A stretch of DNA of 53,656 bases from Opitutia bacterium Tous-C4FEB (GTDB lineage Bacteria > Verrucomicrobiota > Verrucomicrobiia > Opitutales > Opitutaceae): positions 1 to 53,656 of the forward strand of contig NEVA01000008.1 of the NCBI GenBank assembly GCA_002304445.1, in the 5' to 3' direction. Under the pieces are notes generated by a model, which worked only from the letters and a program-made list of their open reading frames with translations, had not been told where the DNA came from and ran no database searches. Of the stretch, positions 3,118 through 20,325 are shown piece after piece. Positions within the stretch are counted from its first letter, which is position 1. Each line of letters begins with the position of its first letter. The position numbers and the translations under genes are program-made.

Positions 3118-4278
3118 TCACACCTTCACAAACCACCGCTTTCGCCAGAGCACCCAGCCGAAGCCCAGAAACGCCCCGACGAACGCCAACGCAAAGGCCA
3201 GCGAGGCGTTGACCGGACTCAGATACGGCGTGAACCCGTTCGCATAGATCCAGCCTTTCAACGTGACCTTGGCCCCGGCCGCGTTTTGCCACGCGATCAA
3301 GCCCATCGTCTTTGCCACCAGACCCGCGCCCACGAAAATCACGATCGCATTCATCCCGTAGATGACAAACGGCGTCGCCCACGCGCGCCAACCGCGCACG
3401 TCGATCAACCAATAAAACACCGCGAACAGCACCGCCGACCACCCCGCCATGAACAGGGCAAAGGCGCTCGTCCAAAGGTTCTTGTTGATCGGCTGCCAGA
3501 GCCCGAGCAGCGCCCCGGCCAACAGCAACGCCGCGCCCAATCCAAACAACCGCGTCGCCCGCACCGCCCCGGGCTGCGGCCCGCGCAACACCGCGCCCGC
3601 GAGCGCCCCGAGCAACGTGGTCGCGATCGCCGCCAACGTGGAAACAATGCCCTCCGGATCAAATCCCGGCGCCGGCGCGCCGCTCCACGTGTGCCCGGCG
3701 AGCAGGTTCGAATCGATCCACCACGGCAGACTGCCCGTAGCCTCGTCGATTCTCCCGGCGCCGTGCCCCGGCACCGGAATAAACTCCAGCATCAAAGCGT
3801 AGCCCGCCAACAACCCCGCCGTCCAAGCGATCTGCCCGCGCCATCGCCACCGCAGACAAATCGCACCCGCGACCAAATAGCACAGGCCGATGCGCTGGAG
3901 CACGCCGGGTATCCGCATTTTCTCGAGGGAGAAATTGTGCGCCGGCAACCATCCAAACGGAAACGCCGTCAGCAACAGCCCGAGCCCGAAAATAATCGCC
4001 GACCGCCGCAACACGTGGCGGAAGAGCTCACCCGTATCTCCGCCCGCCTCGACGCGTTTGGCGAAAGAGAGCGTCATCGCCACGCCCACGATCCACAAAA
4101 ACGCCGGGAAAATCAGATCGGTAAACGTCCATCCGTGCCACGGCGCGTGCAGCAGCGGCGGATAAACCGTGCTCCACGAACCCGGGTTATTGACGAGCAA
4201 CATTCCGGCGGTCGTCGCGCCGCGAAACGCATCCAGAGAAACCAAGCGCGTTGACGGTTTAGGTGCAGGACTGCTCAT
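3118..4278 (-). CDS. NagX-like membrane acyltransferase (heparan-alpha-glucosaminide N-acetyltransferase family, COG4299)
   Basis: This 386-residue integral membrane protein has about ten hydrophobic segments. It opens with RLVSLDAFRGATTAGMLLVN, the hallmark start of the DUF5009/HGSNAT group, where a conserved Asp and Arg precede the first membrane helix. Other family features are WHGWTFTDLIFPAFLWIVG near residue 50 and long Trp- and Gly-rich transmembrane helices. Relatives transfer acetyl groups across the membrane to glucosamine units, and bacterial genes of this type near nag genes are often called nagX. The neighbouring nagB-LmbE gene, converging tail to tail, supports a role in amino-sugar processing. 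Enzyme activity is inferred from family only. Confidence 0.82.
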   Translation of the reverse strand: MSSPAPKPSTRLVSLDAFRGATTAGMLLVNNPGSWSTVYPPLLHAPWHGWTFTDLIFPAFLWIVGVAMTLSFAKRVEAGGDTGELFRHVLRRSAIIFGLGLLLTAFPFGWLPAHNFSLEKMRIPGVLQRIGLCYLVAGAICLRWRWRGQIAWTAGLLAGYALMLEFIPVPGHGAGRIDEATGSLPWWIDSNLLAGHTWSGAPAPGFDPEGIVSTLAAIATTLLGALAGAVLRGPQPGAVRATRLFGLGAALLLAGALLGLWQPINKNLWTSAFALFMAGWSAVLFAVFYWLIDVRGWRAWATPFVIYGMNAIVIFVGAGLVAKTMGLIAWQNAAGAKVTLKGWIYANGFTPYLSPVNASLAFALAFVGAFLGFGWVLWRKRWFVKV

Positions 4279-4332
4279 GAAACCTCGCCAGCCGTAGGCC
4301 GCCCCGCTTTCCCCGACAAGGCGATTGTGCCC

Positions 4333-5880
4333 CTACTTCCCGCCATACCGCGCCAACAGCAGCGGAATCTCGTCCACCTCCCGGCTCGCCGGCCGCTCCG
4401 CCGTGCCGACGTGGCGGTTCAACATCACGGAAAACACCAGCCGTTCGCCGTTCGCCGCCGTCACATAACCTGAAAGCGACGCCACCCAGCGGAGCCCGCC
4501 GGTCTTTGCGCGCACGTTGCCCTCCGCCGCCGTGCCTTTCATTCGGCGCCGCAGCGTCCCGTCCACCCCCGCCACCGGTTGGGCCGCCACAAACGCCGCC
4601 TCCTCCCGGTGCGTCGCCATGAACTGCAACAGCGCCGCCGTCGCCGCCGTCGTCGTGAGATTGTTGCGGGAAAGCCCCGAGCCTTCGTCGAAAATCACTT
4701 CGTCCACGCGCAGGCCGTGGCGGGCCAAAAACTCCCCGAGTGCTTTCACCGCCAGCTCATCCGTGCGCGCCCCAGTCGGCGTGGCCGCGCCCCGCCGCGC
4801 TTCGCCGACTTGGGCAAAAATCAAATCCGTCTGCAGATTCTGCGATTCCTTCATGAAGTGCGCCACGAGCTCGCGCAGCGGCGGCGAAACGATTTCACCG
4901 AGCGCCACCGCACCCGGGCCCACCGCCGTCGCCTCAGGCCAGCGCACGTCGCGCGCCCGGCCTCCGACCGCGATCCCCGCGCGCTCCAGCGCTGCTTTCA
5001 ATCCATGGGCAAACCACTGCGCCGGCCGCGGCACCGTCGCCTCGGTCAACCACTCCTGTCCGCCCAGCGGCAACTCGCCGAAGATCTGCACCGTCATCTC
5101 GCCCGGCACCCGTAGCACGCGGATGCGCCGCGCCCCGCCCGCCGCCGTGGTCACGCTGCGGTTGTCGATCACCAGTCCCGTGTGCGGCTGGAGCAGCTCG
5201 ACCACGCACGGCGCGCCCGCCGTCGCTGCCGGCACGACGCGCAGATCGACAAAATTGTCGTTGAGCGTGATCGCCGCAATCTCCGCGCCGTAATCGTCGT
5301 TCATGTCGTCCACCGTCCAACTCGCGCCCTGCGGCGTACCTTGGTAAAACGTGCCGTCCGCCACGAGATCGCCCGCGATCCGGCGCACCCCGGCCTTTTT
5401 CACCGCCGCGACGAACGGGTCAAACACCGTCATGAACTCCTGTTTCGCCCGCCGCGGATCCCAGCTCGGATCACCGCGCCCGCTTACGATCAGATCGCCC
5501 AAAAGTTCGCCCGCGGCATTCACCGCCACCGACCCCAACAACGGCGTGCGAATCCGAAAATCGCCGCCCAACGCGTCGAGTGCGAGCGCGCCCACATAGA
5601 GTTTGCTGTTCGAGGCCGGACTCATCCGCCGCGTCGGCGCGTGTTCGTAGAGCGTGCGTCCCGAATCGAGCGACACCACCTTCACGCTCCACAACGCGCC
5701 GAGAAACTTCGGTTGGCTCACCTGCGCCTCAAGCGCCGCTTGCAACTCCGTCAATGTGGTCATCGGCACCGTCGGCACCACCGGTGCGCCGGGCGCCGCT
5801 ACTTCCGCCGCGCCCCACGCCAGTCCCACGATGAGCAAAACCAAGAAAAAACAACTCCACCGCAGACGGCCGGTTTTCAT
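4333..5880 (-). CDS. dacB: D-alanyl-D-alanine carboxypeptidase/endopeptidase (PBP4, peptidase S13)
   Basis: The product is a 515-residue periplasmic penicillin-binding protein that trims D-Ala from, or cuts cross-links in, peptidoglycan. All three active-site motifs are present: SNSK at 90-93 with the nucleophilic Ser, SRN at 404-406, and KTG at 459-461. A hydrophobic signal peptide occupies about residues 9-25. The large insert between the first and second motifs is usual for the S13 family. The ATG at 5880 gives a clean basic-hydrophobic signal sequence. An in-frame start at 5934 would put 18 unlikely residues in front of it. It points away from purC, with 254 featureless bases between them. 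Confidence 0.93.
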   Translation of the reverse strand: MKTGRLRWSCFFLVLLIVGLAWGAAEVAAPGAPVVPTVPMTTLTELQAALEAQVSQPKFLGALWSVKVVSLDSGRTLYEHAPTRRMSPASNSKLYVGALALDALGGDFRIRTPLLGSVAVNAAGELLGDLIVSGRGDPSWDPRRAKQEFMTVFDPFVAAVKKAGVRRIAGDLVADGTFYQGTPQGASWTVDDMNDDYGAEIAAITLNDNFVDLRVVPAATAGAPCVVELLQPHTGLVIDNRSVTTAAGGARRIRVLRVPGEMTVQIFGELPLGGQEWLTEATVPRPAQWFAHGLKAALERAGIAVGGRARDVRWPEATAVGPGAVALGEIVSPPLRELVAHFMKESQNLQTDLIFAQVGEARRGAATPTGARTDELAVKALGEFLARHGLRVDEVIFDEGSGLSRNNLTTTAATAALLQFMATHREEAAFVAAQPVAGVDGTLRRRMKGTAAEGNVRAKTGGLRWVASLSGYVTAANGERLVFSVMLNRHVGTAERPASREVDEIPLLLARYGGK

Positions 5881-6134
5881 GGGCGCAGACCGTGGCGGGC
5901 CGGGCGCCAGAGCACAACTACGGAGCACGCTCACCCACCAAAGTGGCCCGGACGCCTATGCACGAGCGGGTATCTTGCCGGGTCTTTTCCAAGCGCAAGG
6001 GCGGGACTCCTCGGCCACGCCAAGCCCACGCCCGCCTCCTCCCGTCGTCGCCTACCGCCGCTCCCTCCGCGCACCGCGACGCACCCGAGGCTTGTTTTCC
6101 CTTTTCCTCCGCGCCTCTCTGGAGCCCGCCGCCC

Positions 6135-7046
6135 ATGCAATTTTCCGCCATCGCCGCCGCCCTGCCTTCCACGGCCGTCACCCGTTTTGATCACGTCCCG
6201 TTTCCCTTGGTCGCCTCGGGCAAGGTCCGCGAAATCTTCGACCTCGGCGACGCCTTGCTGCTCGTCGCCAGCGACCGACTTTCCGCGTTCGATGTGATCT
6301 TGCCCGACGGCATTCCGGGCAAGGGCATCGTCCTCACCCAAATGAGCAACTGGTGGTTCGCCCAGACCTCGGCGCTCATCGCCAACCACCTCCTGCCCGA
6401 TCAGCCGGGCGAATTTGCCCGCCGCGGCCTGCACGACCGCGACCTGCAACTCCGCAGCATGATCGTGAGAAAACTCACGCCGCTCACCATCGAGTGCGTC
6501 ACCCGCGGCTACCTCATCGGCAGCGGTTGGAGCAGCTACCAAAAAACCGGCGAGGTCTGCGGTATCCGTCTTCCCGCCGGCCTCCGCCAAGCCGAGCGCC
6601 TGCCCGAGCCGATCTTCACGCCCACGACCAAAGCCCCCAAAGGCGAACACGACGAACCCATCAACGACGCCCAGGCCGCCGCCCGCATCGGCCCCGCGCT
6701 CTACGAAAAAGTGAAGGCGGCGAGTCTCGCGCTCTACCGCTTCGGCCACGACCGCGCACGCGCCGCCGGTATGATCTTGGCCGACACAAAATTCGAATTC
6801 GGCACGGATGCCGCCGGCAACCTGATCCTGATCGACGAAGTCCTCACGCCCGACTCGTCGCGCTACTGGCCCGCGGAGAGCTACGTCCCCGGCGGCTCGC
6901 CGCCGAGCTACGACAAACAATTCGTCCGCGACCACCTGCTCGCGCTGCACTGGAACCAGCAGCCCCCCGCCCCGCACCTGCCCGCCAAGGTCATCGCCCG
7001 CACGCAGGAAAAATACCTCGCCGCACTGAAGAATCTGCTCGGTTAA
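6135..7046 (+). CDS. purC: Phosphoribosylaminoimidazole-succinocarboxamide synthase
   Basis: This 303-residue cytoplasmic enzyme of de novo purine synthesis joins CAIR with aspartate using ATP to make SAICAR. The start shows the family pattern SGKVREIFDLGDALLLVASD followed by RLSAFD. Later blocks are ECVTRGYLIGSGWSSYQKTG, the substrate region with PIFTPTTKAPKGEHDEP, and FEFG with LIDEVLTPDSSRYWP near the C-terminus. Length fits the longer (about 300 residue) form found in Bacteroidetes and eukaryotes. The ATG at 6135 was preferred because upstream in-frame sequence lacks protein character and precedes a conserved N-terminus. It has no purine-gene neighbours here. Confidence 0.95.
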   Translation: MQFSAIAAALPSTAVTRFDHVPFPLVASGKVREIFDLGDALLLVASDRLSAFDVILPDGIPGKGIVLTQMSNWWFAQTSALIANHLLPDQPGEFARRGLHDRDLQLRSMIVRKLTPLTIECVTRGYLIGSGWSSYQKTGEVCGIRLPAGLRQAERLPEPIFTPTTKAPKGEHDEPINDAQAAARIGPALYEKVKAASLALYRFGHDRARAAGMILADTKFEFGTDAAGNLILIDEVLTPDSSRYWPAESYVPGGSPPSYDKQFVRDHLLALHWNQQPPAPHLPAKVIARTQEKYLAALKNLLG

Positions 7047-7090
7047 GCGCCCGAATTGACGCCAGCCATAAATATGGCTTTGTGGCGGCA

Positions 7091-7348
7091 ATGAAGACCA
7101 CGCTGGAAATTCCCGACCCGCTCTACCGCCAGCTCAAGGTGACCGCCGCTCAGCAGGGGAAAACCGTGCGCAGCTTCGTCAACGACGCTCTCGTCGAGAA
7201 ACTGCGCGCTCCGGCCCTCAGCCCGAATTCGCGACCGGCTTGGACCCGGGCGGTTGGCGGCCTCAATCACCTCCACGCCGAAACCCGGCGCATTGAAAAA
7301 ACCATTCTCACCGAGTTTTCAAAAATCGATTCGGCGGACTGGAAATGA
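7091..7348 (+). CDS. VapB-type antitoxin (ribbon-helix-helix)
   Basis: This is an 85-residue protein. Residues 1-40 (starting MKTTLEIPDPLYRQLKVTAA, then QGKTVRSFVNDAL) fit a ribbon-helix-helix DNA-binding fold with a short beta strand and two helices. The C-terminal half is variable and Arg-rich, as expected for the toxin-wrapping tail. Its stop overlaps the next gene's start in ATGA (7345-7348), so the pair is translationally coupled. Known antitoxins of this type neutralise the PIN nuclease and repress their own promoter. It follows purC by 44 bases but is unlikely to be functionally linked to it. Confidence 0.85.
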   Translation: MKTTLEIPDPLYRQLKVTAAQQGKTVRSFVNDALVEKLRAPALSPNSRPAWTRAVGGLNHLHAETRRIEKTILTEFSKIDSADWK

Positions 7349-7722
7349 TCCTCGATACGAACGCTCTGTCCGCGTTGGCCGACGGTGATTCCGCACTCGT
7401 TGCAAAACTCGGCAATACCTCTCGGCTCGCGCTGCCGGTGATCGCGTTGGGCGAATATCGGTTTGGCGTCACGGCCTCACGGCATCGAAAAACCTACGAG
7501 GCCTGGCTGACGGAGCACCTCCCGCTTTTTGAAACGCTGCCGGTCGATGCTCACACGACCGCCCACTACGCCGCGCTGCGGCACGAGCTAAAACGCTTGG
7601 GCCGCCCGGTGCCGGAAAACGACCTCTGGATCGGGGCCCTCGCGCTCCAACACCGTTTGCCGGTCGTAAGCCGCGACGCCCACTTCGCCACCATGCCCGG
7701 CGTGCGCGCCGTGACTTGGTAG
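7345..7722 (+). CDS. VapC-type PIN-domain ribonuclease toxin
   Basis: This 125-residue single PIN domain carries the four acidic metal-binding residues of active VapC toxins: D4 in MILDTNALSA, E37 in ALGEYRFG, D93 in ENDLWIGA and D111 in SRDAHF. VapC proteins are magnesium-dependent RNases that usually cut tRNA or rRNA and stop translation until neutralised. The gene overlaps the upstream antitoxin by four bases. The catalytic set is complete, so the toxin is probably functional. Confidence 0.9.
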   Translation: MILDTNALSALADGDSALVAKLGNTSRLALPVIALGEYRFGVTASRHRKTYEAWLTEHLPLFETLPVDAHTTAHYAALRHELKRLGRPVPENDLWIGALALQHRLPVVSRDAHFATMPGVRAVTW

Positions 7723-7753: not shown

Positions 7754-9079
7754 TCACTGCCGCGCGCCCAGCGGGGCCGTCACCGCCCCGCGCCCCGCCC
7801 GCACCAACTCGCGCCGCAACCAGTCGAGCGCCGCGTTCACCGCCCGCACTTTGACCGTCGTGCGCGGTCCGGGATAGCTCAGCTTTTTCGACCACACGCC
7901 GTGTGGCGCATGCAGCGCCAAATAAAACGTCCCCACGGGATTCTCCGCCGTCCCGCCGCAGGGACCGGCAAATCCCGTGATCGCGATCCCGTAATCCGCC
8001 CCGAGGATCTCCGCGGCGCCCGTAGCCATGGCGACGGCGTTTTCCGCGCTCACCGCCCCGTGCTGCGCGAGCAGGCACTCCGGCACATCGAGCAACTGCA
8101 TCTTGGACTCGTTGGAATAGCACACCACTCCGCCCGAGAAAAATTTGGACGCACCGCAAATGTCCGTAAACGAGTTTGCCAGCAACCCGCCGCTCGCCGT
8201 CTCCGCGCACGCGAGCGTCTTCTCCTGCCCCCGCAACAGATCCGCACACACCCGCGCCAGCGGGTCGTGCCCGTAGCAGACAAAATCTTCGCCCAACAGC
8301 GCCGCGCATTCCTCCGCGACCGCGTGCAGCCGCAGGTCATCCAACTGCCCGGTCGGCGAGCTCAACCGGCAATCGACATGGCCCGAGTGCGCGCAAAACG
8401 CGATGCTCAGCGCCGCCCCGAAACGGTCAAAGATCGGCTGCAGCTTCGTCTCGAGCGCGCTCTCGCCCACGCCCGACGTGCGGATCTGCACATAGGCCTC
8501 GCGCTCGGTCAGCAAGCCCCGCGCCGCCAGCCGTGGCACGACTTGCTCGGTGAACATCGGTTGCAACTCGTTCGGCGGTCCGGGCAACATCACCAGAATC
8601 TTCCCGTCCTGCTCCACCCAGAGACCCGGCGCCGTGCCGTTAGCGTTGATCAACACTTCGCCTCGCTCGAAAACCTGCGCCTGCTTGAGATTGTTCGGCG
8701 TCATCTTGCGGCCCAGGCGCTCGAACCGCGCCTCGATGCTCGCTTCGACCTCGGCGTTGCGCACGAGTTTTTGCCCCAACACCTCCGCAATGCACTCGCG
8801 CGTGCGGTCGTCGCACGTCGGCCCGAGCCCCCCCGTCGTGATCACCACATCCGCCCGCGACCAACTCTCGCGGAACTGCGCCACAATCGCATCGGCCTCG
8901 TCGGTGATGGTGATGTTTCGCCGGAGCGTCACTCCCCGCCGCCCAAGCTGCGCACCGACGAAGGTGAGATGACCGTTGGCCGTCAGGCCCAACAGCAGTT
9001 CGTCCCCAAGCGTGAGGAGCTCGTAATAGAGTTGGGCGACGGGTTTGGAGGCGGCGGAGGAGTTGCTGGATGAAACCAT
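7754..9079 (-). CDS. cinA: CinA family protein: molybdopterin-binding-like domain plus nicotinamide-nucleotide amidohydrolase domain
   Basis: The 441-residue protein has the standard CinA layout. The N-terminal MoaB/MogA-like domain shows GDELLLG and TTGGLGPTCDDRTRE near residues 23-110. The C-terminal domain, from about residue 270, shows CAETASGGLLANSFTDICG, YSNESKMQLL and ITGFAGPCGGTAENPVGTF, which belong to the PncC-type amidohydrolase that deamidates nicotinamide mononucleotide. The likely role is pyridine nucleotide repair, with the N-terminal domain possibly acting as an ADP-ribose pyrophosphatase. It is divergent from uvrC with only 36 bases between the start codons, so promoters must overlap or lie within the genes. 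Confidence 0.94.
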   Translation of the reverse strand: MVSSSNSSAASKPVAQLYYELLTLGDELLLGLTANGHLTFVGAQLGRRGVTLRRNITITDEADAIVAQFRESWSRADVVITTGGLGPTCDDRTRECIAEVLGQKLVRNAEVEASIEARFERLGRKMTPNNLKQAQVFERGEVLINANGTAPGLWVEQDGKILVMLPGPPNELQPMFTEQVVPRLAARGLLTEREAYVQIRTSGVGESALETKLQPIFDRFGAALSIAFCAHSGHVDCRLSSPTGQLDDLRLHAVAEECAALLGEDFVCYGHDPLARVCADLLRGQEKTLACAETASGGLLANSFTDICGASKFFSGGVVCYSNESKMQLLDVPECLLAQHGAVSAENAVAMATGAAEILGADYGIAITGFAGPCGGTAENPVGTFYLALHAPHGVWSKKLSYPGPRTTVKVRAVNAALDWLRRELVRAGRGAVTAPLGARQ

Positions 9080-9115: not shown

Positions 9116-10663
9116 ATGCCAACCGGCGAAACCGTAAATCTAAAAGAGAAGGTCCGCCATCTCTCCGACAAGCCCGGCGTCTACCTCATGAAGGACCGCC
9201 TCGGCCGCATCATTTACGTCGGGAAGGCCAAAAATTTAAAAAAACGCGTCTCCACCTATTTTACGCCGTCACGCGCGATGACGTGGCACCCGAAAATTCG
9301 CGCGCTCATCGAGATGATCGCCGACTTCGATGTGCACGAAGTGAAGTCCGAACCCGAGGCCCTCATCCTCGAGGGCAAGCTGATCAAGCAGTGGAAACCG
9401 AAATACAACACCGACTTCACCGACGACAAACGCTTCCTCCTCGTCCGCGTCGATCTGGCCGAAGAACTCCCGCGCTTCCGCCTCACCCGCTTTAAAAAGG
9501 AAGATCGCTCCCGCTATTTCGGCCCCTTCGCCCACAGCGGACTCCTGCGCAAATCGCTCGCCCAGATGCGCCGCCAGTTCGGCATTCTGCTCGGCGATGC
9601 CACCCCGCAGAAACGCCCCGACGGCTCCTGGCAACTCTACGACGACGTGCGCCAGGAACTCTACGGTTTCGAAAACACCGTCACGCCCGACGCCTACCGC
9701 GCCCGCGTGGACGACGCCTGCACCTTCCTCGAAGGCAAGTCCCGCGAATGGCTCGAAACCCTCCGCGCCGAAATGCTCGCCGCCGCCGAAAAACAACAGT
9801 TCGAAAAAGCCGCCGAGCTCCGCGATATCGTCTTCGCCCTCGGCAAGACCCTCGCGAAAACCCGCAACTTCGAGCGCACCGATCCCACCCAGGCGCTCCC
9901 CGATGCGAGCACCGAAACCCTGCGGCTGCTCGGCGAGGCCCTCGCGCTCAAATCCCCGCCGCGCACGTTGGAGTGCTTCGATATCTCCCATATTTCCGGC
10001 ACCTTCGTCGTCGCCTCGATGGTCGCGTTTTCCGACGGCCGCCCCGACAAGGACAACTACCGGCGTTTTCAGATCAAAAGCTTCATGGGCAACGACGATT
10101 TCCGCGCGATGGAGGAAGTCGTCGGCCGCCGCTACCGCCGCCTCCGCGACGAGGGCAAACCGCTGCCCGATCTCGTCGTGATCGACGGCGGTCGCGGCCA
10201 GATCGGCGCCGCGCTCAAAGCCTTCGTCGCCCTCGATCTCGAGCCGCCCCCGCTCATCGGCCTCGCGAAAAAACACGAGACGATCATCTTCCCCGACGCC
10301 CGCCCGCCGCTGAATCTCTCGCTGCATTCACCCGCGCTCAACTTGCTCCAGCGCCTGCGCGACGAAGCCCACCGCTTCGCCAACACCTACAACGCCGATC
10401 TCCGTTCGCGTAAAATCCGCGAGAGCGTGCTCGACGATTTTCCGGGGCTCGGCGCCGTCCGCCGGGCGGCGCTGCTCGCTCATTTTGGCGACATCGAGAA
10501 ACTCCGCGCCGCACCCAGCGAAGCCATCGCCGAAGTCCCCGGCTTCGGTGGCAAACTGGCCGCCGAGCTGCACGCGTTTCTCCACCGCGCCGCGCCCGCC
10601 ACGTCCTCTTTCCCGGCTTCACTACCAGCTCCGGATTCAGAGGTGAAATCCGTGGTGAACTAA
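9116..10663 (+). CDS. uvrC: Excinuclease ABC subunit C
   Basis: UvrC makes both incisions in nucleotide excision repair. The 515-residue protein shows a GIY-YIG nuclease domain (GVYLMKDRLGRIIYVGKAKN, residues about 22-41), a UVR motif (EKQQFEKAAELRDIVFAL, about 230-250) that binds UvrB, the RNase H-like second nuclease (ECFDISHISG and VVIDGGRGQI), and C-terminal helix-hairpin-helix repeats (DDFPGLGAVRRAALLAHFG, then IAEVPGFGGKLA). It is about 90 residues shorter than E. coli UvrC, mostly in the linker regions, while every catalytic module is kept. It ends 227 bases before cas3 on the same strand. Confidence 0.95.
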   Translation: MPTGETVNLKEKVRHLSDKPGVYLMKDRLGRIIYVGKAKNLKKRVSTYFTPSRAMTWHPKIRALIEMIADFDVHEVKSEPEALILEGKLIKQWKPKYNTDFTDDKRFLLVRVDLAEELPRFRLTRFKKEDRSRYFGPFAHSGLLRKSLAQMRRQFGILLGDATPQKRPDGSWQLYDDVRQELYGFENTVTPDAYRARVDDACTFLEGKSREWLETLRAEMLAAAEKQQFEKAAELRDIVFALGKTLAKTRNFERTDPTQALPDASTETLRLLGEALALKSPPRTLECFDISHISGTFVVASMVAFSDGRPDKDNYRRFQIKSFMGNDDFRAMEEVVGRRYRRLRDEGKPLPDLVVIDGGRGQIGAALKAFVALDLEPPPLIGLAKKHETIIFPDARPPLNLSLHSPALNLLQRLRDEAHRFANTYNADLRSRKIRESVLDDFPGLGAVRRAALLAHFGDIEKLRAAPSEAIAEVPGFGGKLAAELHAFLHRAAPATSSFPASLPAPDSEVKSVVN

Positions 10664-10803
10664 ATTCTGCGTTTCCGCCGCCAGGCCAACGGATCGACGA
10701 CCTCGAAAAAAACGAAGCCGGAAACACCCCCGCGATTTCCGCCAAAAACCGGTTGCCTCGGTCGGATGCGCCCGCCTCGCTCCGAACTGCGCCACCCCCG
10801 CCC

Positions 10804-10826
10804 GAAAATTTCCAAAAAAAATTTTC
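10804..10826. promoter_or_regulatory. AT-rich inverted repeat upstream of cas3
   Basis: GAAAATT at 10804-10810 and AATTTTC at 10820-10826 form a 7-bp inverted repeat around nine bases. It is an A/T block in otherwise GC-rich DNA about 65 bases before the cas3 start codon. It may be part of the cas promoter or a binding site for a nucleoid or regulator protein. No clear -35/-10 pair could be assigned. Confidence 0.4.
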
Positions 10827-10859
10827 CCTATCCCAGCCAATGTCCCACCCCCGTCGCTA

Positions 10860-10897
10860 AGATCATGCGCAATTCGACGCCCTTTTGCGCATGATCT
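10860..10897. promoter_or_regulatory. Perfect 13-bp inverted repeat covering the cas3 start codon
   Basis: AGATCATGCGCAA at 10860-10872 and TTGCGCATGATCT at 10885-10897 are exact reverse complements separated by 12 bases. The cas3 ATG (10891) lies inside the right arm. As DNA this has the size and symmetry of a dimeric repressor operator. As RNA it would fold into a 13-bp hairpin that hides the translation start. Either would place the whole cas operon under control at its first gene. No autoregulator gene was recognised beside it, although the Phd-like antitoxin in the operon is a conceivable partner. Confidence 0.6.
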
Positions 10898-13179
10898 ATC
10901 ACGCCCACACCGCCGACGGCCCCGACGGAAACCCCCTGCCCGAATCCTCCAAGAAATGGCAGCCGCTCCGCACGCATTTAGAGAACGTCGCCACCCTCGC
11001 CGCCAAATTCGCTGAGCCATTCAACGCCAGCACCGAAGCCCGTCTTGCCGGTTTGCTGCATGACCTCGGAAAATACCGCACCGAATTCCAATCCTACCTG
11101 CGCGGCGAACGCTCCAGCAGCACCGAGACCCAACACGCCATCTTTGGAGCCGCGTGGGCCGCCGACGAACTGCGCCATATTCCCTGCACCGCTCTCGCTA
11201 TCGCCGGCCACCACGCCGGCCTGCACAATCAATGTGACATCGAGGCCATGTGCGCCAAACGCGGCCTTCGCATCCCGGAAACCCTTCCAGTCCTCATCGC
11301 ACTGCTCGAAAGCGAACTCGGTCCGCTTCCTTCACTTCCCGCGCCGCCATCGTGGATTCACGACGAGCACTCCGCCGAGTTCTACACGCGCCTAATTTTC
11401 TCCTGCATCGTGGATGCTGATCGCCTCGACACCGCCCATTGGCCCGCGTCGCCACCAGCCGACACGCCGCTCGACGCCTCCACTTTACTCGCCGCCGTCC
11501 ACGCCGAACGCACCTATAAAACCACCAACGCCAAAAACCCAGGCAGCCCTCTGGCCGCTCTCCGTAACCGCATCTTCGACACCGCCCTCAAACGCGCCAC
11601 GCTCCCCACTGGCTTCTTCTCCCTCACCGTCCCCACCGGCGGCGGCAAGACGCTTGCTTCGATGGCCTTCGCTCTCGCCCACGCCCACACGCACGGCCTG
11701 CGCCGCATCATCGTCGTCATTCCCTACCTCTCAATCATCGAACAAAACGCCGCCGAGTATCGCCGCATTTTCGGCGCCGACGTCGTTCTAGAAAATCACT
11801 CGGGCGTCGCCCCCAATGACGATGCCGCCGAAGAGGAAAAATCTCGCCTCGAACTTGTCTCTGAAAATTGGGACGCCCCCGTCATTATCACCACCTCCGT
11901 CCAGTTTCTCGAATCCCTCTTCGCCGCCAGCCCTTCACGCTGCCGTAAGCTCCACCGCATCCCGCGCTCTGTCGTCATCTTTGACGAAGTCCAAACACTG
12001 CCAGCCCACCTGCTCGCCCCTACTTTCAACGTTCTCCGCGAACTCGCCGCCAACTATGGCGCTAGCTTTGTTTTTAGCTCCGCCACCCAGCCCGCATTCC
12101 GCCGCTGCACCGCTCTGCCCGACGGTTTTCTCACCTCCGAACTGCGCGAGATCGCCCCGGCCCCTGACGAACTTTTCCGCGCTCTCCGTCGCGTCACCTA
12201 CCGCCTGCCCTCCCCCGACGAAACCTTCGACTGGCCCGCGCTCGCCACCCGCCTCGCCGCCACCTCGCAGGTGCTGTGCGTGCTCAACCTCACCCGCCAC
12301 GCACGAGAACTCTGGGACCAGCTCACCCAACACCTCCGCGACCTTCACGGGCCGAACCTCCCCGCCAACGAAGCCCCCATCCACCTCTCCTCTGCGATGT
12401 GCGCCCAGCATCGCCTCGACCTCATCGCCCGCATCAAGGAACGTCTTCGTCTCGACCAACCTTGCCGCGTCGTCTCCACCCAGATGATCGAGGCCGGTGT
12501 GGACGTTGATTTCCCCGAAGTCTGGCGCGCACTTGGCCCGCTCGATTCCATCGTTCAAGTCGCCGGTCGCTGCAACCGCGAAGGTCGCCGCCCGACCGGC
12601 ACCGTCCACGTCTTCAAACCCGCCGACCATAAACTCCCGCGTGGAGTCTACAGCTCCGCCTCCGATCAAGCCGCCATCACGCTCGCCGCCCTCGGCGACC
12701 CCGCAACCGCCGCCGAACACCTCGCCACTTCTTCTGACATTTTCTCCGGCTATTTCCAGTCGCTCTACCAAGTCGTCAACACCGACCACGCCAAACCCGG
12801 CGAGCCCACCATTCAGGAAGATCGCAGCTATCTCCGCTACCGCGAAGTCGCTCGAAAAGCCCGCGTCATCGAAGATTCCGGCACCCCTGTCATCATCTCC
12901 GGCGACCTGCGCGGGGGCCGATGGGCTGAGCCGCTCATCGCCGAACTCCGCACCCGTGTCCTTGCTCCTGGCCAGCGCCGTTTCGACCGAGATGATATTC
13001 GCCGCCTGCAGCGTTACATGGTCAACGTGAGGCATCACAAATTTCAGCTCCTCCTCGCCCGCCAGCTTATTCGCCCCCTCCTGCCCAACCTCGAACTCTA
13101 CGTTCTCGACACGGCCTGCTACCACCCAGCGCTCGGTCTCATCTTGGACAACCTCGCTCCCGACGACTTCCTTCTATGA
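10891..13179 (+). CDS. cas3: CRISPR-associated nuclease-helicase Cas3, type I-C
   Basis: Cas3 is recruited by the Cascade-crRNA complex and unwinds and degrades target DNA. The 762-residue product has the HD nuclease domain first (H29, H57-D58 in GLLHDLGKY, and AGHHAG at 105-110). The superfamily 2 helicase follows: Walker A TGGGKT at 249-254, the DEVQ box at 365-368, SAT at 397-399, and the motif VI block QVAGRCNREGR near 555. A TTG at 10885 is also in frame, but the ATG at 10891 is a stronger start. Both lie in a perfect inverted repeat. The stop overlaps the cas5 start in ATGA, so it heads a coupled operon. All catalytic motifs look intact. Confidence 0.96.
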   Translation: MIYHAHTADGPDGNPLPESSKKWQPLRTHLENVATLAAKFAEPFNASTEARLAGLLHDLGKYRTEFQSYLRGERSSSTETQHAIFGAAWAADELRHIPCTALAIAGHHAGLHNQCDIEAMCAKRGLRIPETLPVLIALLESELGPLPSLPAPPSWIHDEHSAEFYTRLIFSCIVDADRLDTAHWPASPPADTPLDASTLLAAVHAERTYKTTNAKNPGSPLAALRNRIFDTALKRATLPTGFFSLTVPTGGGKTLASMAFALAHAHTHGLRRIIVVIPYLSIIEQNAAEYRRIFGADVVLENHSGVAPNDDAAEEEKSRLELVSENWDAPVIITTSVQFLESLFAASPSRCRKLHRIPRSVVIFDEVQTLPAHLLAPTFNVLRELAANYGASFVFSSATQPAFRRCTALPDGFLTSELREIAPAPDELFRALRRVTYRLPSPDETFDWPALATRLAATSQVLCVLNLTRHARELWDQLTQHLRDLHGPNLPANEAPIHLSSAMCAQHRLDLIARIKERLRLDQPCRVVSTQMIEAGVDVDFPEVWRALGPLDSIVQVAGRCNREGRRPTGTVHVFKPADHKLPRGVYSSASDQAAITLAALGDPATAAEHLATSSDIFSGYFQSLYQVVNTDHAKPGEPTIQEDRSYLRYREVARKARVIEDSGTPVIISGDLRGGRWAEPLIAELRTRVLAPGQRRFDRDDIRRLQRYMVNVRHHKFQLLLARQLIRPLLPNLELYVLDTACYHPALGLILDNLAPDDFLL

Positions 13180-14042
13180 ACAATTCCAACCTCATCACCC
13201 TCCGCGTCTGGGGCGACTTCGCCTGCTTCACTCGACCCGAGATGAAAGTGGAGCGCGTCAGCTATCCCGTCATGACGCCCTCCGCCGCCCGCGGCATCCT
13301 CGAAGCCGTCTTCTGGGAACCGCAGATGTATTACCTCATCGACTCCATCCGCGTCGTAAAACGCGGCCAGTGGATTTCCATCCGCCGTAACGAAGTCACC
13401 CGCGTAATCAGCCTCGATAGCGCAAAGACTTGGATGCACTCGCCCGAGAAAACCTCACCCATCCAAGCCGGCGGCGGGGCCGAGGACGGCACCCAGCGCA
13501 ACATGCTCGCGCTGCAAGGCGTCGAATACCTCATCACCGCCGAGGTGCGCCTCACCCCGCTCTCTCAACCTCCTCGTGACAATCTCGCCAAATATCTCCG
13601 CGAAATCGAAGGCCGCGCTCGCGCTGGGAAATGTTTCCACCGCCCCGGCCTCGGAATGCGCGAATTCGCCGCCGATTTCGACTGGGAACCCGACGCCGAT
13701 GCCGCGCTCGCTCGCCGCGCCAGCGAACTCGACCAACCTATTCCCCAAGCCAATGAACCCCTCGGCCTCATGCTCTACGATCTCTTCGACCACCGCGCCC
13801 GCGCCGCCGGTTTCCGTTGGCTAACACCCGACGAAGAAGCCCGCCAAGTCGCCGACTTCGATCAAACTCTCACCGATCTAAAAAAAGGCGAGCAGACCAA
13901 AGCCCGCAAAGAATTCGCCTCGCAGCGTCTCCGCTCAACCGCTCCCGCGATCAAACCCGCGCCTCTGTTTTTCAACGCCACCCTGAAAAACGCCCGCCTC
14001 GACTGCCACCCCGACCGCGTCCTCGCCCAAGGAGGCAACTGA
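13176..14042 (+). CDS. cas5c: Cas5c (Cas5d) pre-crRNA endonuclease and Cascade subunit
   Basis: In type I-C systems, which lack Cas6, Cas5c cuts the repeat hairpin and stays bound to the 5' handle of the crRNA. The 288-residue protein shows the family start (LRVWGDFACFTRPEMKVERV), the block SYPVMTPSAARGILEAVFW, which forms the RAMP-type fold, and the later GKCFHRPGLGMREF with its conserved His and Gly-rich loop. Its start overlaps the cas3 stop by four bases. The array repeat has a stem and 11-nt 3' tail that match what this enzyme family is known to process. Confidence 0.95.
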   Translation: MNNSNLITLRVWGDFACFTRPEMKVERVSYPVMTPSAARGILEAVFWEPQMYYLIDSIRVVKRGQWISIRRNEVTRVISLDSAKTWMHSPEKTSPIQAGGGAEDGTQRNMLALQGVEYLITAEVRLTPLSQPPRDNLAKYLREIEGRARAGKCFHRPGLGMREFAADFDWEPDADAALARRASELDQPIPQANEPLGLMLYDLFDHRARAAGFRWLTPDEEARQVADFDQTLTDLKKGEQTKARKEFASQRLRSTAPAIKPAPLFFNATLKNARLDCHPDRVLAQGGN

Positions 14043-14044
14043 CC

Positions 14045-15949
14045 ATGCTCCTCAAACACCTCTACGATTTCGCCGTTTCGCGAAACTTGCTCGACGATCC
14101 GGCCTTTCGCCGAAACCAGCCCGTCCGTTGGATTATCCACCTCGACCGCACAGGGAAGCTCCTCGGGAATGGGCCACAACAGACAGAAGGGCCGCGCAAA
14201 AACAAGGGTCACGAATACGACGTGCCCAAGACCAGTCGCGCTACCAACTCAGGAACCGTCGCCGATTTTCTCGTCGATGACATAGGCGCGATTTTTCGCC
14301 TCTCGGGTGATCCGAGCGAAGAGCGGAACGAACGCGCGGCCGCAAAGCTCGCCGCAAAACACGAAGACTACTGGCGTCAGATAGTCGCCGCTCGCGAGAC
14401 GACAGGGGATCAACGTTTCGATGCACTCCTTACTTTTCGCGCCTCGTTGAGTGGCGCTGCGCCCGCATTTCTAGTTCCTGACGCCAAGAATACGGGATGG
14501 ATGGTCATAACTTCTAGCGGCGAAGAAATACCACTTGGCAGCGACATGCTTACCTTCGCCGTCGGCACTACGCTATTTCTCGACGACTCTATTCGTGAGC
14601 ATTGGCGCGGCGTTCACGCCAAAGAAACGTCCGACGCTGAAGGCGCGGCAGTCGTTGGCGCGTGTATCATCACTGGGCAAACAAACGTCGCGCTCGCACG
14701 CACACACACGCCAATGGTCACAGGTCTCCCAAAACCAGCGAAGGGAACGGGCGCGGGAGTTGTCGGCGTCGAGAGCGATGCTTTCCGTTCCTACGGCTTC
14801 GAGAAAGGCTACAACGCTCCTACCTCAATCATCGCGTCACGCGCCTACCTCCTCGCGCTTCAGTTCCTCTCTCGGAATCAAAATCACTGGCTGCCGCTCG
14901 GGCCGGCTTGGCTTTGCTTCTGGGCGGTCGAGAGCAAGGACGCTACCGATGTGTTCGCGCGCTTGTTAAGGAAACCCGATCCCCTGACAGTTCGAAAATT
15001 CTTCACGTCCCCTTGGGCGGGCCTCGAAAAACAGCCACCCGCATCGGACAAGTTTATCGCCGTCACGCTCAGCGCTGCTGGCCCGCGTATCGTCATCAAG
15101 GATTGGGTTCAAATGCCGCTCATCGAAGCCGCTGAGCATTTCAAAAATTGGTTCAATGACCTGACTCTAGAAAACGCTTCTGACGAATCCTCCGTAGCAG
15201 ATACGGGCGGCGAGGATGAGTTCGCACCGCTGGCCGTCCGGCGACTCGCAGGATGCACGGCTCCACTCACAAAGAAAGGGGGACGCTTTATCCCGGACTT
15301 CGACAAATTGCAGCCGGATGTTGTTACCCAGCTCTACCGCGCCGCCCTCGAAGGCACCGCGCCCTCGCTTTCGCTGCTCAAACCCATCCTCAACCAACTC
15401 CACTCCCGCCTCGTCCGAGACGACACCTACAACCTCCTCTACGACGAAAGTCGCTTCGCCCTCCTCAAGCTTATCCTCAACCGCCAACCCAATCGTTCCA
15501 TGAAAATCCAGCCCACCCTCACCGCCGACACCGAGGACGCCGCCTACAACTGCGGCCGCCTCCTTGCCATCCTCGCCGCCACCCAGGCCAAGGCCCACGA
15601 CTTCAAACTCGAAGGTGCCGGCGTCTCCGAGCGCTACTTCGGAACCGCCAGCGTTTCCCCGTCGAGCGTGCTTCCGCTGCTCATTCGCCTGAATCGCCAT
15701 CACCTAAATAAAATCCGCAAGTCTGAGCGCTTCGGCGGTCACGAGCGCTTTATCCAGGAGCAGATCGAAAGCGTGCTCGTGCTCTTCAAGCCTGCTCGCA
15801 CCGGCCTTCCGCCTACCTTCCCCCGCACGCTCGACTTCCAAGCCCAGGGTCGCTTCGCCATCGGCTTCTACCAACAACACGCCGCCGACGCGGCCGCCCG
15901 CCAAGCCAACAAAAAAGACCAAACTCCAGCCCTCGCCCCCGCCTCCTAA
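14045..15949 (+). CDS. cas8c: Cas8c (Csd1), large subunit of type I-C Cascade
   Basis: Cas8c is the large effector subunit that reads the PAM and contacts target DNA. The 634-residue protein starts MLLKHLYDFAV, followed by WIIHLDRTGKLLG, a typical Csd1 opening. The start at 14045 is backed by a good Shine-Dalgarno (GGAGG at 14031-14035) at the end of cas5c, two bases after its stop. The family is very divergent, so no catalytic motif is expected. Codon use changes inside the gene: about 14150-15330 uses many A/T-ending and G-ending codons unlike the C-ending ends of the same gene and its neighbours, hinting at recombination. Confidence 0.92.
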   Translation: MLLKHLYDFAVSRNLLDDPAFRRNQPVRWIIHLDRTGKLLGNGPQQTEGPRKNKGHEYDVPKTSRATNSGTVADFLVDDIGAIFRLSGDPSEERNERAAAKLAAKHEDYWRQIVAARETTGDQRFDALLTFRASLSGAAPAFLVPDAKNTGWMVITSSGEEIPLGSDMLTFAVGTTLFLDDSIREHWRGVHAKETSDAEGAAVVGACIITGQTNVALARTHTPMVTGLPKPAKGTGAGVVGVESDAFRSYGFEKGYNAPTSIIASRAYLLALQFLSRNQNHWLPLGPAWLCFWAVESKDATDVFARLLRKPDPLTVRKFFTSPWAGLEKQPPASDKFIAVTLSAAGPRIVIKDWVQMPLIEAAEHFKNWFNDLTLENASDESSVADTGGEDEFAPLAVRRLAGCTAPLTKKGGRFIPDFDKLQPDVVTQLYRAALEGTAPSLSLLKPILNQLHSRLVRDDTYNLLYDESRFALLKLILNRQPNRSMKIQPTLTADTEDAAYNCGRLLAILAATQAKAHDFKLEGAGVSERYFGTASVSPSSVLPLLIRLNRHHLNKIRKSERFGGHERFIQEQIESVLVLFKPARTGLPPTFPRTLDFQAQGRFAIGFYQQHAADAAARQANKKDQTPALAPAS

Positions 15950-15987
15950 TCTTCACCCACTTTTTCCACCATCCATCCCATCCAACT

Positions 15988-16983
15988 ATGAGCTCAAATA
16001 TCCTCACCAACCGTCACGATTTCCTCCTCCTCTTCGAAGTCACCAATGGCAACCCCAACGGCGACCCCGATGCTGGCAACATGCCGCGTCTCGATCCCAA
16101 CACCAATCGCGGTCTCGTTACCGACGTTTGCCTCAAACGCAAAGTCCGCAATTTCTTCGACCTTTTCCCACCCGCCCGCGTGAGCGACACCGCCAACGGC
16201 TACAACATCCTCATCAAGCAGGGTGCCGTGATCGAGACCGAGCAGAAGAAGAGTATCAAAGCAGCCGTCGAAAGCCTCCCAAAAGATGCTTCCGATTCGA
16301 AGAAAGCCGAGACCGCCAAAAACTGGCTCTGTCGCGAATTCTTCGACGTCCGCACTTTCGGCGGAGTGCTCTCCACCGGTGACGACGTGCTCAAAGGCTC
16401 CGCCTTCGGGCAAGTGCGCGGCCCTGTGCAGTTCACCTTTGGGCAATCGTTCCACGCCATCACGCCATTGGAAGTCACGATTACGCGTTGCGCCGTCACG
16501 AAGGAAGAAGACGCCAAAAAGGAGCGCACCATGGGCAACAAACACATCGTCCCCTACGGCCTCTACGCCGCCAAAGGCTACATCTCTCCCGCGTTCGCCG
16601 AAAAAACCGGCTTCACCGACGCCGACCTCGCGCTCCTCTTCCAAGCTCTCCTCTCCATGTTCGAGCACGACCGCTCCGCCGCCCGCGGCGAAATGATCGT
16701 GCGCGGCCTCTACGACTTCGAACACGTCGGCACCCAGCACGCCAACAACGCCGACCAAAACAAACGCGAAGCCCGCCTCGGCTGCGCTCACGCCCACATC
16801 CTTATCGAAGGCGTCAAAGTCGCGCTCTCCGACGAAGCCAAGGCCGCCGGCAAAACCTTCCCGGAATCATTTGCGGACTACGCGGTGAACAATACATGGA
16901 CCGCAGAGAATCTACCCAAAGGCATCAAACTCCACCTCCGCCACGTCGGCCCTGATGCCGCCATCGGCCCACGCCAAAGCTGA
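15988..16983 (+). CDS. cas7c: Cas7c (Csd2), Cascade backbone subunit
   Basis: The 331-residue Cas7 protein coats the crRNA spacer in several copies. It has the Csd2/Csh2 hallmark opening HDFLLLFEVTNGNPNGDPDA, then RGLVTDVCLKRKVRNFF, and later EHDRSAARGEM and LYDFEHVGTQHANNADQNK. It lies 38 bases after cas8c in the usual I-C order cas3-cas5-cas8c-cas7. In most I-C loci cas4 follows directly. Here a toxin-antitoxin module intervenes. Confidence 0.95.
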   Translation: MSSNILTNRHDFLLLFEVTNGNPNGDPDAGNMPRLDPNTNRGLVTDVCLKRKVRNFFDLFPPARVSDTANGYNILIKQGAVIETEQKKSIKAAVESLPKDASDSKKAETAKNWLCREFFDVRTFGGVLSTGDDVLKGSAFGQVRGPVQFTFGQSFHAITPLEVTITRCAVTKEEDAKKERTMGNKHIVPYGLYAAKGYISPAFAEKTGFTDADLALLFQALLSMFEHDRSAARGEMIVRGLYDFEHVGTQHANNADQNKREARLGCAHAHILIEGVKVALSDEAKAAGKTFPESFADYAVNNTWTAENLPKGIKLHLRHVGPDAAIGPRQS

Positions 16984-17004
16984 TCGCAGCCTCCCCCTCC
17001 CCCC

Positions 17005-17037
17005 GCGCCCAACTTGACCACTTGTCCAGTTGGGCGC
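17005..17037. promoter_or_regulatory. Inverted repeat between cas7c and the Phd-like gene; possible operator
   Basis: GCGCCCAACT at 17005-17014 and AGTTGGGCGC at 17028-17037 are perfect 10-bp arms around 13 bases. It sits 12 bases before the Phd-like antitoxin start. Phd/YefM proteins repress their own operons by binding palindromes in this position, so an operator is likely. A stem alone could weaken read-through from cas7c, but no T-run follows, so it is not a standard terminator. Confidence 0.5.
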
Positions 17038-17048
17038 AGCCTAGCCCC

Positions 17049-17282
17049 ATGTCCACCACCCTCACCATCGGCGAATTCAAGGCCCGCCTGTCCGACGCCC
17101 TCGCCCTCGTCGAAAAAGGCGAGACCATCACCGTGACCTACGGCCGCAACAAAACCCCCGTTGCCGTCTTCGGCCCGCCGCCCGCCGCCCCCAAACGCAA
17201 ACTCGGTCACCTCGCGGGAAAATTTCGCGTCACCATCCGTCCCAATTGGAAAATGACCGAGGAGGAATTTCTTGGCTCATGA
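17049..17282 (+). CDS. Phd/YefM-type antitoxin inside the cas operon
   Basis: This 77-residue protein has the Phd fold signature TIGEFKARLSDALALVEKGE followed by TITVTYGRNKTPVAVFGP, the N-terminal dimerising DNA-binding domain. The tail (residues 45-77, ending NWKMTEEEFLGS) is the expected toxin-binding part. The start at 17049 was chosen over an upstream in-frame ATG at 17022 that lies inside the inverted repeat. Its stop overlaps the PIN gene start in ATGA. It probably neutralises the PIN toxin and represses the promoter at 17005-17037. Location between cas7c and cas4 is unusual. Confidence 0.88.
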   Translation: MSTTLTIGEFKARLSDALALVEKGETITVTYGRNKTPVAVFGPPPAAPKRKLGHLAGKFRVTIRPNWKMTEEEFLGS

Positions 17283-17680
17283 AACTCCTGCTCGACACCT
17301 GCTCCGCGCTCTGGGCCTTGCAAGACTCCGGCCAACTCTCCGCCCCGGCCCGGCGGGCGCTGAAAAACCCGGACAACTCGGTTTCCGTCAGCGTGGTTTC
17401 GTTTTGGGAAATCAGCCTCAAATCTGGGCTGGGCAAACTCGCCCTCCACGGTGCCGAGCCCGAAGATTTCCCCCGCTTCGTCGTCGAAGCCGGTTGGAGC
17501 ATCCTGCCAATTTCCGAGGAAATCGCGGCCAGTTCCGGCCGCCTTCCCCGCCTAGCCGAGCATCGCGACCCGTTTGACCGGTTGCTCATCTGGACTGCGA
17601 TCAACGAGGGTTTTGCCCTCGTCTCGGGCGACGATGATTTCCCTGCTTACGCGCCCCACGGCTTGAAAATCTGTTGGTAG
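17279..17680 (+). CDS. PIN-domain toxin (VapC-like) inside the cas operon
   Basis: This is a 133-residue PIN-domain RNase of the type paired with Phd-like antitoxins. Acidic residues of the active site are visible: D6 in LLLDTC, E44 in SFWEISLKSG, D97/D100 in HRDPFDRLL and D118-D120 in SGDDDF. Family members cleave RNA and arrest growth when not neutralised. The four-base overlap with the antitoxin points to coupled translation. The module splits the effector genes from cas4-cas1-cas2. It may act as an addiction element for the locus or as a back-up abortive defence, both inference. The active site is complete. Confidence 0.9.
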   Translation: MKLLLDTCSALWALQDSGQLSAPARRALKNPDNSVSVSVVSFWEISLKSGLGKLALHGAEPEDFPRFVVEAGWSILPISEEIAASSGRLPRLAEHRDPFDRLLIWTAINEGFALVSGDDDFPAYAPHGLKICW

Positions 17681-17720
17681 CGCGCCCTCGACCCACCGCC
17701 GCACCGGCATTTTCGCCTCC

Positions 17721-17960
17721 ATGAAAACCGTCATCCTCTCCGCTACATTCGACGGTCAACACATTCAGCTGGACGAACCCTATGCCCTGCCTCTCCACGC
17801 GCGCCTCTTGGTAACCTTGCTTCCCACCGAGCCGGACCCCGAGGGAGAAGCATTTCTCCGTCTCGCTGCCCAAAACCTCGCTCGCGCCTACGGCGCAAAC
17901 GAACCGGACTACACTCTCGCCGACCTGAAAGAGATAAATCCGCTCTATGAAGGCAAGTGA
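17721..17960 (+). CDS. Small antitoxin-like protein without a partner toxin
   Basis: The protein has 79 residues. Its N-terminal part (MKTVILSATFDGQHIQLDEP, then YALPLHARLLVTLL) resembles the beta-rich opening of DUF104/AF2212-like and DUF2281-like putative antitoxins. The tail (NEPDYTLADLKEINPLYEGK) matches a pattern I recall from cyanobacterial genes that precede toxins. Here no toxin follows: the stop overlaps a GTG (17957) in GTGA, as it would before a coupled toxin, but that frame only runs into cas4. It could be the leftover of a second toxin-antitoxin pair. Function is not established. Confidence 0.6.
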   Translation: MKTVILSATFDGQHIQLDEPYALPLHARLLVTLLPTEPDPEGEAFLRLAAQNLARAYGANEPDYTLADLKEINPLYEGK

Positions 17961-18011
17961 CCGCGTCACCGCCCGGCAGACGATCTGATCCGAGGAGGCA
18001 AACAACGCTCG

Positions 18012-18632
18012 ATGGACCCCCTCCCCCTCAGCGCCCTGAATCATTTCCTCTACTGCTCGCGCCGCGCCTACCTCATCCACGCCGAGCGCGTCTTCGTCGA
18101 CAACGAGCACACCCTCCTCGGCAATCTCGCCCACGAGGCCGTCGACACCCCCGGCTACGAACACCGCGCGGGTTGGGAACTCCTCCGCGCCCTCCCGCTC
18201 TTCTCGGATAAGCTCGGTCTCACCGGCAAAGCCGACCTCGTCGAGGTCCGCCGCGACCCCGCCGACTCCACGCGCATCGCCGAGGCCCGCCCCGTCGAAT
18301 ACAAAAAAGGCCCCGCCCGCCGCTGGTCCAACGACCACGTGCAGCTCTGCGCCGAGGCCCTTTGCCTCGAAGAAATGCTCGGCCTCTCCATCGCCTCCGG
18401 CCTCATCTTTCACGCCGCCTCCGCCCTCCGCACGACCGTAGAATTCGACTCCGCCCTTCGTGCCCTCACCCGCGCCACGCTCGCCGCGCTCCGCCTCACG
18501 CTCGCGCAGCCCACCGCTCCGCCCGCCGTGCTCAAGCCCCAGTGCGACGGCTGCTCCCTGCGCGGCGTCTGCCTCCCCGAGGCTACCGCCTTGCGCCGCG
18601 CCCGTCTTTTCGACCCCCGCGACTACACCTGA
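18012..18632 (+). CDS. cas4: Cas4 iron-sulfur exonuclease, type I-C
   Basis: Cas4 trims prespacer ends and helps select PAM-proximal spacers together with Cas1 and Cas2. The 206-residue protein has the four cysteines for a 4Fe-4S cluster: C15 in LYCSRR and C178, C181, C187 in CDGCSLRGVC. RecB-like nuclease residues are also present: H41, D75 in GKADLVEV, E96 and K98 in VEYKKG. A strong AGGAGG at 17993-17998 supports the start. It follows the orphan antitoxin-like gene by 51 bases and precedes cas1 by 48. Confidence 0.95.
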   Translation: MDPLPLSALNHFLYCSRRAYLIHAERVFVDNEHTLLGNLAHEAVDTPGYEHRAGWELLRALPLFSDKLGLTGKADLVEVRRDPADSTRIAEARPVEYKKGPARRWSNDHVQLCAEALCLEEMLGLSIASGLIFHAASALRTTVEFDSALRALTRATLAALRLTLAQPTAPPAVLKPQCDGCSLRGVCLPEATALRRARLFDPRDYT

Positions 18633-18680
18633 GGCCCGCGCCCGCACTCCGCCTGCCAGACTCTCCGCTCTCAGCCCATC

Positions 18681-19718: not shown

Positions 19719-19827
19719 TTCCCGCTCCCAGCCCGTTCCCCGCTGCTCCGCCTCACTCCGAAAACATCCGCGCTTCCGTCGCCTGACCACTGATCTCTGA
19801 CTCCTGACTTCTCATCCCTGTCCCCCG

Positions 19828-20124: not shown

Positions 20125-20325
20125 CCCGATCAGGCGACGCGAGCCCTCCTGCGAACCTGAAGCCTCGCCGCAGGCCGGACGCCTTCGCAAAGTTCCCAAG
20201 GCGCTAACGGTGAGAGAAAAAAAGCCGCCGAATAGGACCGATACTGGTCCAAGTTTTCCGATCTTTGACAGTTTCGCAGAAGCACGACAGAACCCCTTCG
20301 CGATCAGCCTCAAAAACAGGTCGTG
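20125..20325 (+). promoter_or_regulatory. CRISPR leader
   Basis: About 200 bases between cas2 and the first repeat hold no gene. The stretch is the expected leader for spacer insertion and array transcription. It contains GCGAACCTGAAG-like sequence near the start, a small palindrome GGACC-GATACT-GGTCC at 20235-20250, and a TTGACA at 20265-20270 about 55 bases before the first repeat that could be a -35 box. No good -10 was found. The repeat ends in GATTGAAAC on the plus strand, which agrees with the leader on this side. Confidence 0.7.

Follow-up and report, generated by a model that had tools for sequence, protein, structure and literature searches.

A conserved inverted repeat over the cas3 start codon of a type I-C CRISPR-Cas operon in Opitutaceae, a candidate operator

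In CreR-type autorepression, a guide RNA that combines a degenerate repeat with a seed match targets the promoter of the cas operon. Proteins can also act on defence genes through inverted repeats. The WYL-domain repressors BrxR and CapW control phage-defence operons that carry R-BOX inverted repeats, and BrxR, in what is described of it there, is a dimer encoded in the very island under its control, its repeats having arms of 11 bp and lying 5 bp apart (PMC9122601). CasR (Rv1776c), a regulator of the TetR type, is described as binding a 20-bp palindrome and repressing csm6 (PMC9953421). In the open-licence literature, we found nothing describing the present element and nothing on the promoter of a CRISPR cas3 gene in Opitutaceae, so that cas regulation appears to be little described in this family. 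Here, we describe an inverted repeat that covers the start codon of cas3 in an Opitutaceae genome, and which is probably a DNA operator of the promoter of a type I-C cas operon.

The window, that is, the whole stretch of 53,656 nucleotides that was analysed, carries on its forward strand cas3 (10891..13179, 762 aa, Pfam HD, DEAD and Cas3-like_C_2), cas5 (13176..14042, Cas_Cas5d), cas8c (14045..15949, 634 aa, Cas_Csd1) and cas7 (15988..16983, Cas_Cas7), and a CRISPR array of 17 repeats is found at 20326-21499. The operon is headed by cas3 and reads cas3-cas5-cas8c-cas7, and the presence of Cas3, Cas5d, Csd1 (Cas8c) and Cas7 in one direction assigns it to subtype I-C. Between cas7 and cas4 lie a PIN-domain gene and a small gene, antitoxin-like by eye and with no NCBIfam match. 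This pair has a 10-bp inverted repeat of its own just upstream (window 17005-17037, 17049-17680); it is also found in G091 and G160 and is absent from G178 and G122, and G091 has an additional 192-aa gene, with no NCBIfam match, between the PIN gene and cas4 (L123:13374-13952).

The cas3 frame opens at the ATG at 10891 and begins M-I-Y-H-A-H. An earlier note had reported a perfect 13-bp inverted repeat over this codon, and this description holds: the left arm AGATCATGCGCAA (10860..10872, forward strand) is the perfect reverse complement of the right arm TTGCGCATGATCT (10885..10897), from which it is separated by a spacer of 12 nt (10873..10884). The right arm holds the start codon and codon 2 of cas3, and the left arm likewise contains an ATG. 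The left arm includes the conserved core, ATCATGCGC followed by a purine (10862-10871), and the two 9-bp cores, ATCATGCGC and GCGCATGAT, have 16 nt between them. No other pair in the window has arms of more than 10 bp with a loop of 3-30 nt. The note had also judged the match to be far beyond chance at this spot. Taken as a bare coincidence, it is not overwhelming: when the whole 53.7-kb window was simulated with a first-order Markov model, 3 of 60 runs contained arms of at least 13 bp with such a loop, a chance of about 1 in 20 for the window, and a much smaller one for the precise spot of the cas3 start. We thus take the conservation of the repeat in relatives, and not the perfect match alone, as the decisive evidence for it.

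A cas3 similarity search in 200 genomes of the family gave a match in 29 of them, at 30 places. When read on the correct strand, the repeat with its common core is found upstream of cas3 in the window's own genome, G091, G160 (two copies), G178, G122, G109 and G043. The arms are therefore kept at the same place in relatives, and the lack of conservation that the note had named as fatal to its claim is not what is observed. A pattern search for ATCATGCGC-N16-GCGCATGAT found 14 places in 12 of 252 family genomes, at spacings of 15-17, while the reversed pattern found none in the same genomes. All but one of these places, which lies in an unrelated frame, are cas3 start regions, intact or remnant: nine open cas3 starts (own genome, G091, G160 twice, G178, G122, G109, G043 and G220), three truncated 5' remnants (G207, G174 and G010) and one remnant ahead of cas12b (G182). 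The spacing between the cores is of 16 nt in 11 of these 13 cas3-start places, of 15 in G178 and of 17 in G220. This search fixes the core, so variation of the core is invisible to it. Decayed repeats were also met, with one mismatch in G182:C210 and G171, and with two in G088 and at L063, the latter with TTG as its start codon. Among close cas3 relatives, the repeat has a patchy distribution.

Several of these loci are remnants of cas operons (L128, L130, L131, L133 and L135) in which the promoter region, about 20-108 residues of Cas3 and the repeat, either exact or with one mismatch, are still present; in L128, a CRISPR-repeat-like stretch lies within about 300 bp. At L132 (G182:C196), the repeat (7813-7846) belongs to a I-C promoter that is left with only the first few codons of cas3; some 215 bp further on comes a type V-B cas12b gene (3386-7597, minus strand), itself followed downstream by a cas4-cas1 fusion. 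A cas3-like start, recognised by eye, also lies about 120 bp upstream of cas12b in G005 (L139), with the repeat absent. In total, cas12b matches were found in seven family genomes, and among the five gene starts that were read, only that of G182 has the repeat.

As a control for bias, we considered 28 cas3 starts chosen by protein similarity, independently of the repeat. Among the 30 cas3 matches, eight (L030-L037) were excluded, their match beginning past the N-terminus or their start being unclear. Six loci (L056, L058, L060, L062, L063 and L064) were used from a second set of 44, in which six others come from contigs already in the 30-match set and 32 are distant loci left out, three of these after inspection. 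The named relatives in this second set with an identity of at least 71% belong to Opitutaceae, Opitutae and other Verrucomicrobiota, and the family is thus probably Opitutaceae. L058, on the same contig as L015, is a remnant of cas3 located upstream, and L014 has an upstream sequence of only 49 nt. The repeat is present at eight of the 28 starts, with an identical core each time. At the 20 others, the longest perfect stem over the start is of 5 bp and no stem of another sequence is found, a test that is weaker in seven of them because the match there does not begin at a start codon. An element that matters only by its structure should turn up with other sequences, and none was seen among the 28 starts, which favours an operator. 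On the coding side of the right arm, codon 2 is ATC or ATT in all nine repeat-bearing rows of the cas3 tree set, and none of the 10 rows that lack the repeat and have a match starting at the ATG shows a codon 2 with AT as its first two bases. This may partly reflect common descent, since the decayed rows L018 and L063 also have ATC.

A conserved promoter box, TGTCCCACCC (10841..10850, forward strand), lies upstream and is present with or without the inverted repeat. It is followed by a -10-like hexamer, TAAGAT (10858..10863, forward strand; TANNNT in relatives), the final two bases of which also open the conserved core. In the form TGTCC(A/C/T)ACC, the box was found upstream in 14 of the 28 similarity-chosen loci, of which eight have the repeat, one has a decayed copy (L063) and five have no repeat. 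The first TANNNT after the box starts 16-17 nt from the box start in all 14, while the distance from the box to the start of the cas3 match ranges from 39 to 107 nt. As this fixed spacing is also seen in the five repeat-less loci, the hexamer is independent of the repeat. The T and A at -4 and -3 are invariant in the 12 rows used, and TGTCCCACC followed by TANNAT occurs a single time in the 3.76-Mb own genome, at cas3. Scanning for consensus promoters gave no sigma-70 promoter that includes a -35, and no -35 hexamer is evident; the putative -10 and promoter are proposed from their conservation. With the usual sigma-70 spacing, the RNA is predicted to start at about 10869-10871, still within the left arm but close to its end. 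In three repeat-less relatives (L015, L017 and L021), the TGTCC box belongs, by eye, to another inverted repeat, TRGGAC-N7-GTCCYA, of which it makes up one half; L015 has a matched change. This other repeat may be a second type of operator upstream of cas3.

The history of the repeat has to be read along with that of the gene. In a midpoint-rooted tree of the cas3 bodies after residue 70, for which long branches call for caution, repeat-bearing genes fall into four main groups: one is the window's clade, one is the clade that holds G122 and G160b, which are not sister branches, one unites G043 and G220, and one is G109. The own cas3 is 70-87% identical to that of G091 or G160a in codons 1-60 and 93-100% identical after; conversely, the two G160 copies are 85-89% identical to each other in codons 1-60 and then 39-55%. 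The cas3 gene is thus a mosaic (10891 to about 11130, codons 1-80; L011, L038 and L022), in which the promoter remains linked to roughly the first 60 codons, the switch point falls in codons 60-80, and the rest of the gene differs in origin. From these identities, the promoter, the repeat and the cas3 start seem to form a block under which the operon bodies were exchanged. In G160 and G109, the promoter and the cas3 5' end look transferred as such a block, so the occurrences of the repeat are not all independent.

The earlier note had left the choice between an operator for a dimeric repressor and a hairpin blocking translation. We favour the operator, as the sequence of the half-sites is kept, no alternative stem is found and the left arm overlaps the -10-like hexamer. 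A symmetric putative protein, dimeric or tetrameric, would contact the two half-sites, ATCATGCGC followed by a purine and its mirror, one of which covers the end of the hexamer together with the predicted transcription start, and the other the start codon. Once bound, it would either block the access of RNA polymerase to the promoter or hold the polymerase there, so that the cas genes would be silent for as long as the protein stayed on the site. The repeat at cas3 shows two features expected of the operator of a dimeric factor: half-sites in two-fold symmetry, conserved in sequence and almost fixed in spacing, and an overlap with promoter elements, here those of a promoter predicted from conservation. 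On the other hand, the centres of the half-sites are about 25 bp apart, which is not a whole number of helical turns and speaks against an operator.

In the hairpin alternative, the cas3 mRNA would start upstream of the left arm, and the paired arms would bury the start codon and lower the translation of cas3. If it were wholly transcribed, the 38-nt element would indeed fold at -19.5 kcal/mol (z -5.9 against shuffles), and the 16-row alignment A1, from which the second G160 copy, having the same repeat, was left out, contains signs of covariation. The pairs 2-38 and 12-28, both at the edge, vary as complete pairs (A-U 7, G-C 6, other 3; and A-U 4, G-C 4, C-G 1, other 7), and a third pair has one cell changed on both sides. 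Paired cells amount to 83.2% against 79.9% in shuffles, and double-changed cells to 12 against 5.4, neither being reached in any of 500 shuffles; these ignore relatedness, and as the rows are related, the counts are not probabilities. However, the G-U form is absent from both edge pairs, the changes in the 9-bp core are uncompensated, and neither the pairs with changes in both partners (3 against 2.5 in shuffles, 255 of 500 being as high) nor the pair types (5 against 5.6) are in excess. Sliding by -2 leaves the covariation score nearly equal (0.092 against 0.096), and the repeat-less starts offer no stem of another sequence. Such edge-pair covariation could fit a symmetric operator as well as an RNA stem. 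DNA is preferred over RNA mainly because the hexamer, at its fixed spacing from the box, ends in the left arm, so that the RNA, whose start is itself a prediction, should begin within this arm; most of the arm would then be untranscribed, a stem of at most 4 bp would be left (z +1.4 and -0.8), and the hairpin could not form. We regard the hairpin as unlikely. No Rfam match at gathering scores was found, and the terminator scan showed none at the repeat.

The mosaic 5' end of cas3, apparently exchanged as a block in some genomes, and the patchy distribution of the repeat would also suit a palindrome that has no function, born from template switching during replication and spread by recombination along with the shared cas3 5' end. 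Such an origin is rather improbable, as the core is kept in G122, G043 and G220 despite an identity of 42-68% to the window's cas3 over codons 1-160 (20-codon steps), and the spacer varies. Much less credible is a leader peptide of nine codons, opened by the ATG of the left arm and closed by a TGA that overlaps the cas3 ATG (ATGA), with coupled translation. Its frame is kept at 11 of the 13 cas3-start places, but it is broken in G178 and G220, its inner residues vary, and its ATG lies upstream of the predicted transcript start; moreover, the opposite strand shows the same nine-codon frame at most places, as expected of a by-product of a palindrome with a 16-nt spacer. We give just as little credence to a CreR-like self-control, in which Cascade with a partly matching guide would bind the cas promoter. 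The box and hexamer do occur only once in the own genome, at cas3, but guide targeting needs no palindrome, and the array repeat has no close degenerate copy outside the array in the window (the best has 13 mismatches in 37 and lies within uvrC). Only one of the 16 spacers has an 8-nt seed match near cas3 (position 6 ignored), with nine identities in the 14 bases compared up to the end of the tested stretch, within the window.

For an operator, the number of targets is also informative. The scan for further half-sites that the note had proposed was run, and the own genome holds no exact half-site other than the two arms at cas3; the six half-sites with one mismatch are all inside frames of 243-769 codons. 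A global operator can thus be rejected. Allowing two mismatches at a spacing of 16 gives 33 repeats in the family, one of them at cas3 (G088); the 32 others all lie in stop-free frames of 175-892 codons, and one of these, in G082, is fully paired. With the reversed pattern, the two-mismatch search found 4 places instead of 46; as this pattern contains the letters of stop codons, it says little about what chance would produce in coding DNA. Across 384 genomes of the class, the own site was found together with four others, at spacings of 11, 12, 14 and 20, in frames that are not cas3-like. In a viral collection, the cas3 peptide patterns had no match, and the repeat pattern was found in 10 contigs, none with a spacing of 16 (nine in frames of at least 244 codons and one in a frame of 66). 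Having a single apparent target argues for a dedicated factor.

As to this factor, no gene next to the repeat-bearing operons was recognised as a regulator, and the operator was not found at a second gene, so that no autoregulated repressor is visible. The stop-to-stop frames of window positions 1-30000 were compared with six repeat-bearing loci, and those with relatives in at least two of the six all lie, among the matches listed, within 10640-21577, either in the cas/array stretch or in the Phd-PIN pair. Over 31 loci, some on the same contig and many ending before the cas7-cas4 gap, this pair was found in G091 and one G160 copy, and G182 has a fragment of the PIN gene. Two matches to the WYL domain are present in the own genome; they lie on contigs C26 and C1 and not on C38, and neither of these two contigs carries a half-site within one mismatch. 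It is conceivable, though doubtful, that the CRISPR-Cas machinery supplies the binding factor, in the form of a Cas protein or Cas complex that works as a dimer. This would fit with the single target in the own genome, with an occurrence in the family that is restricted to cas3 starts apart from one chance site, that spans several distinct cas3 lineages and includes one place ahead of cas12b, and with the fact that, among the matches listed, no non-cas gene of the window other than the Phd-PIN pair is common to at least two of the six repeat-bearing relatives. If true, it would amount to an autorepression of cas at the protein level, through a palindrome over the start codon. In any case, an element that has one target and preserves its half-sites could serve directly as bait in the search for a dedicated CRISPR regulator, with natural controls at hand in the relatives that carry or lack the repeat.

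How, then, does the proposed operator compare with the described systems? With CreR-type autorepression, it shares the promoter of the cas operon as a target, but CreR requires a degenerate repeat and a seed-matching guide, and none was convincing in the window. With CasR, it shares a palindromic operator at CRISPR-associated genes and a negative control, here proposed. The CasR site, however, concerns mycobacterial csm6, lies far upstream and has repeats 4 bp apart, whereas the cas3 site lies on the -10-like hexamer and the start codon; CasR also has a second site at its own promoter, and none was found in the window's genome. The closest known arrangement, by analogy with what is described of it, is the R-BOX of BrxR, an inverted repeat directly downstream of a predicted -10 box at a defence operon under a dimeric repressor. 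The two differ in their geometry, the R-BOX repeats being 5 bp apart against 16 between the 9-bp cores at cas3, and in their surroundings, as no WYL regulator of the BrxR/CapW kind was met at the defence locus, the own WYL matches being on C26 and C1.
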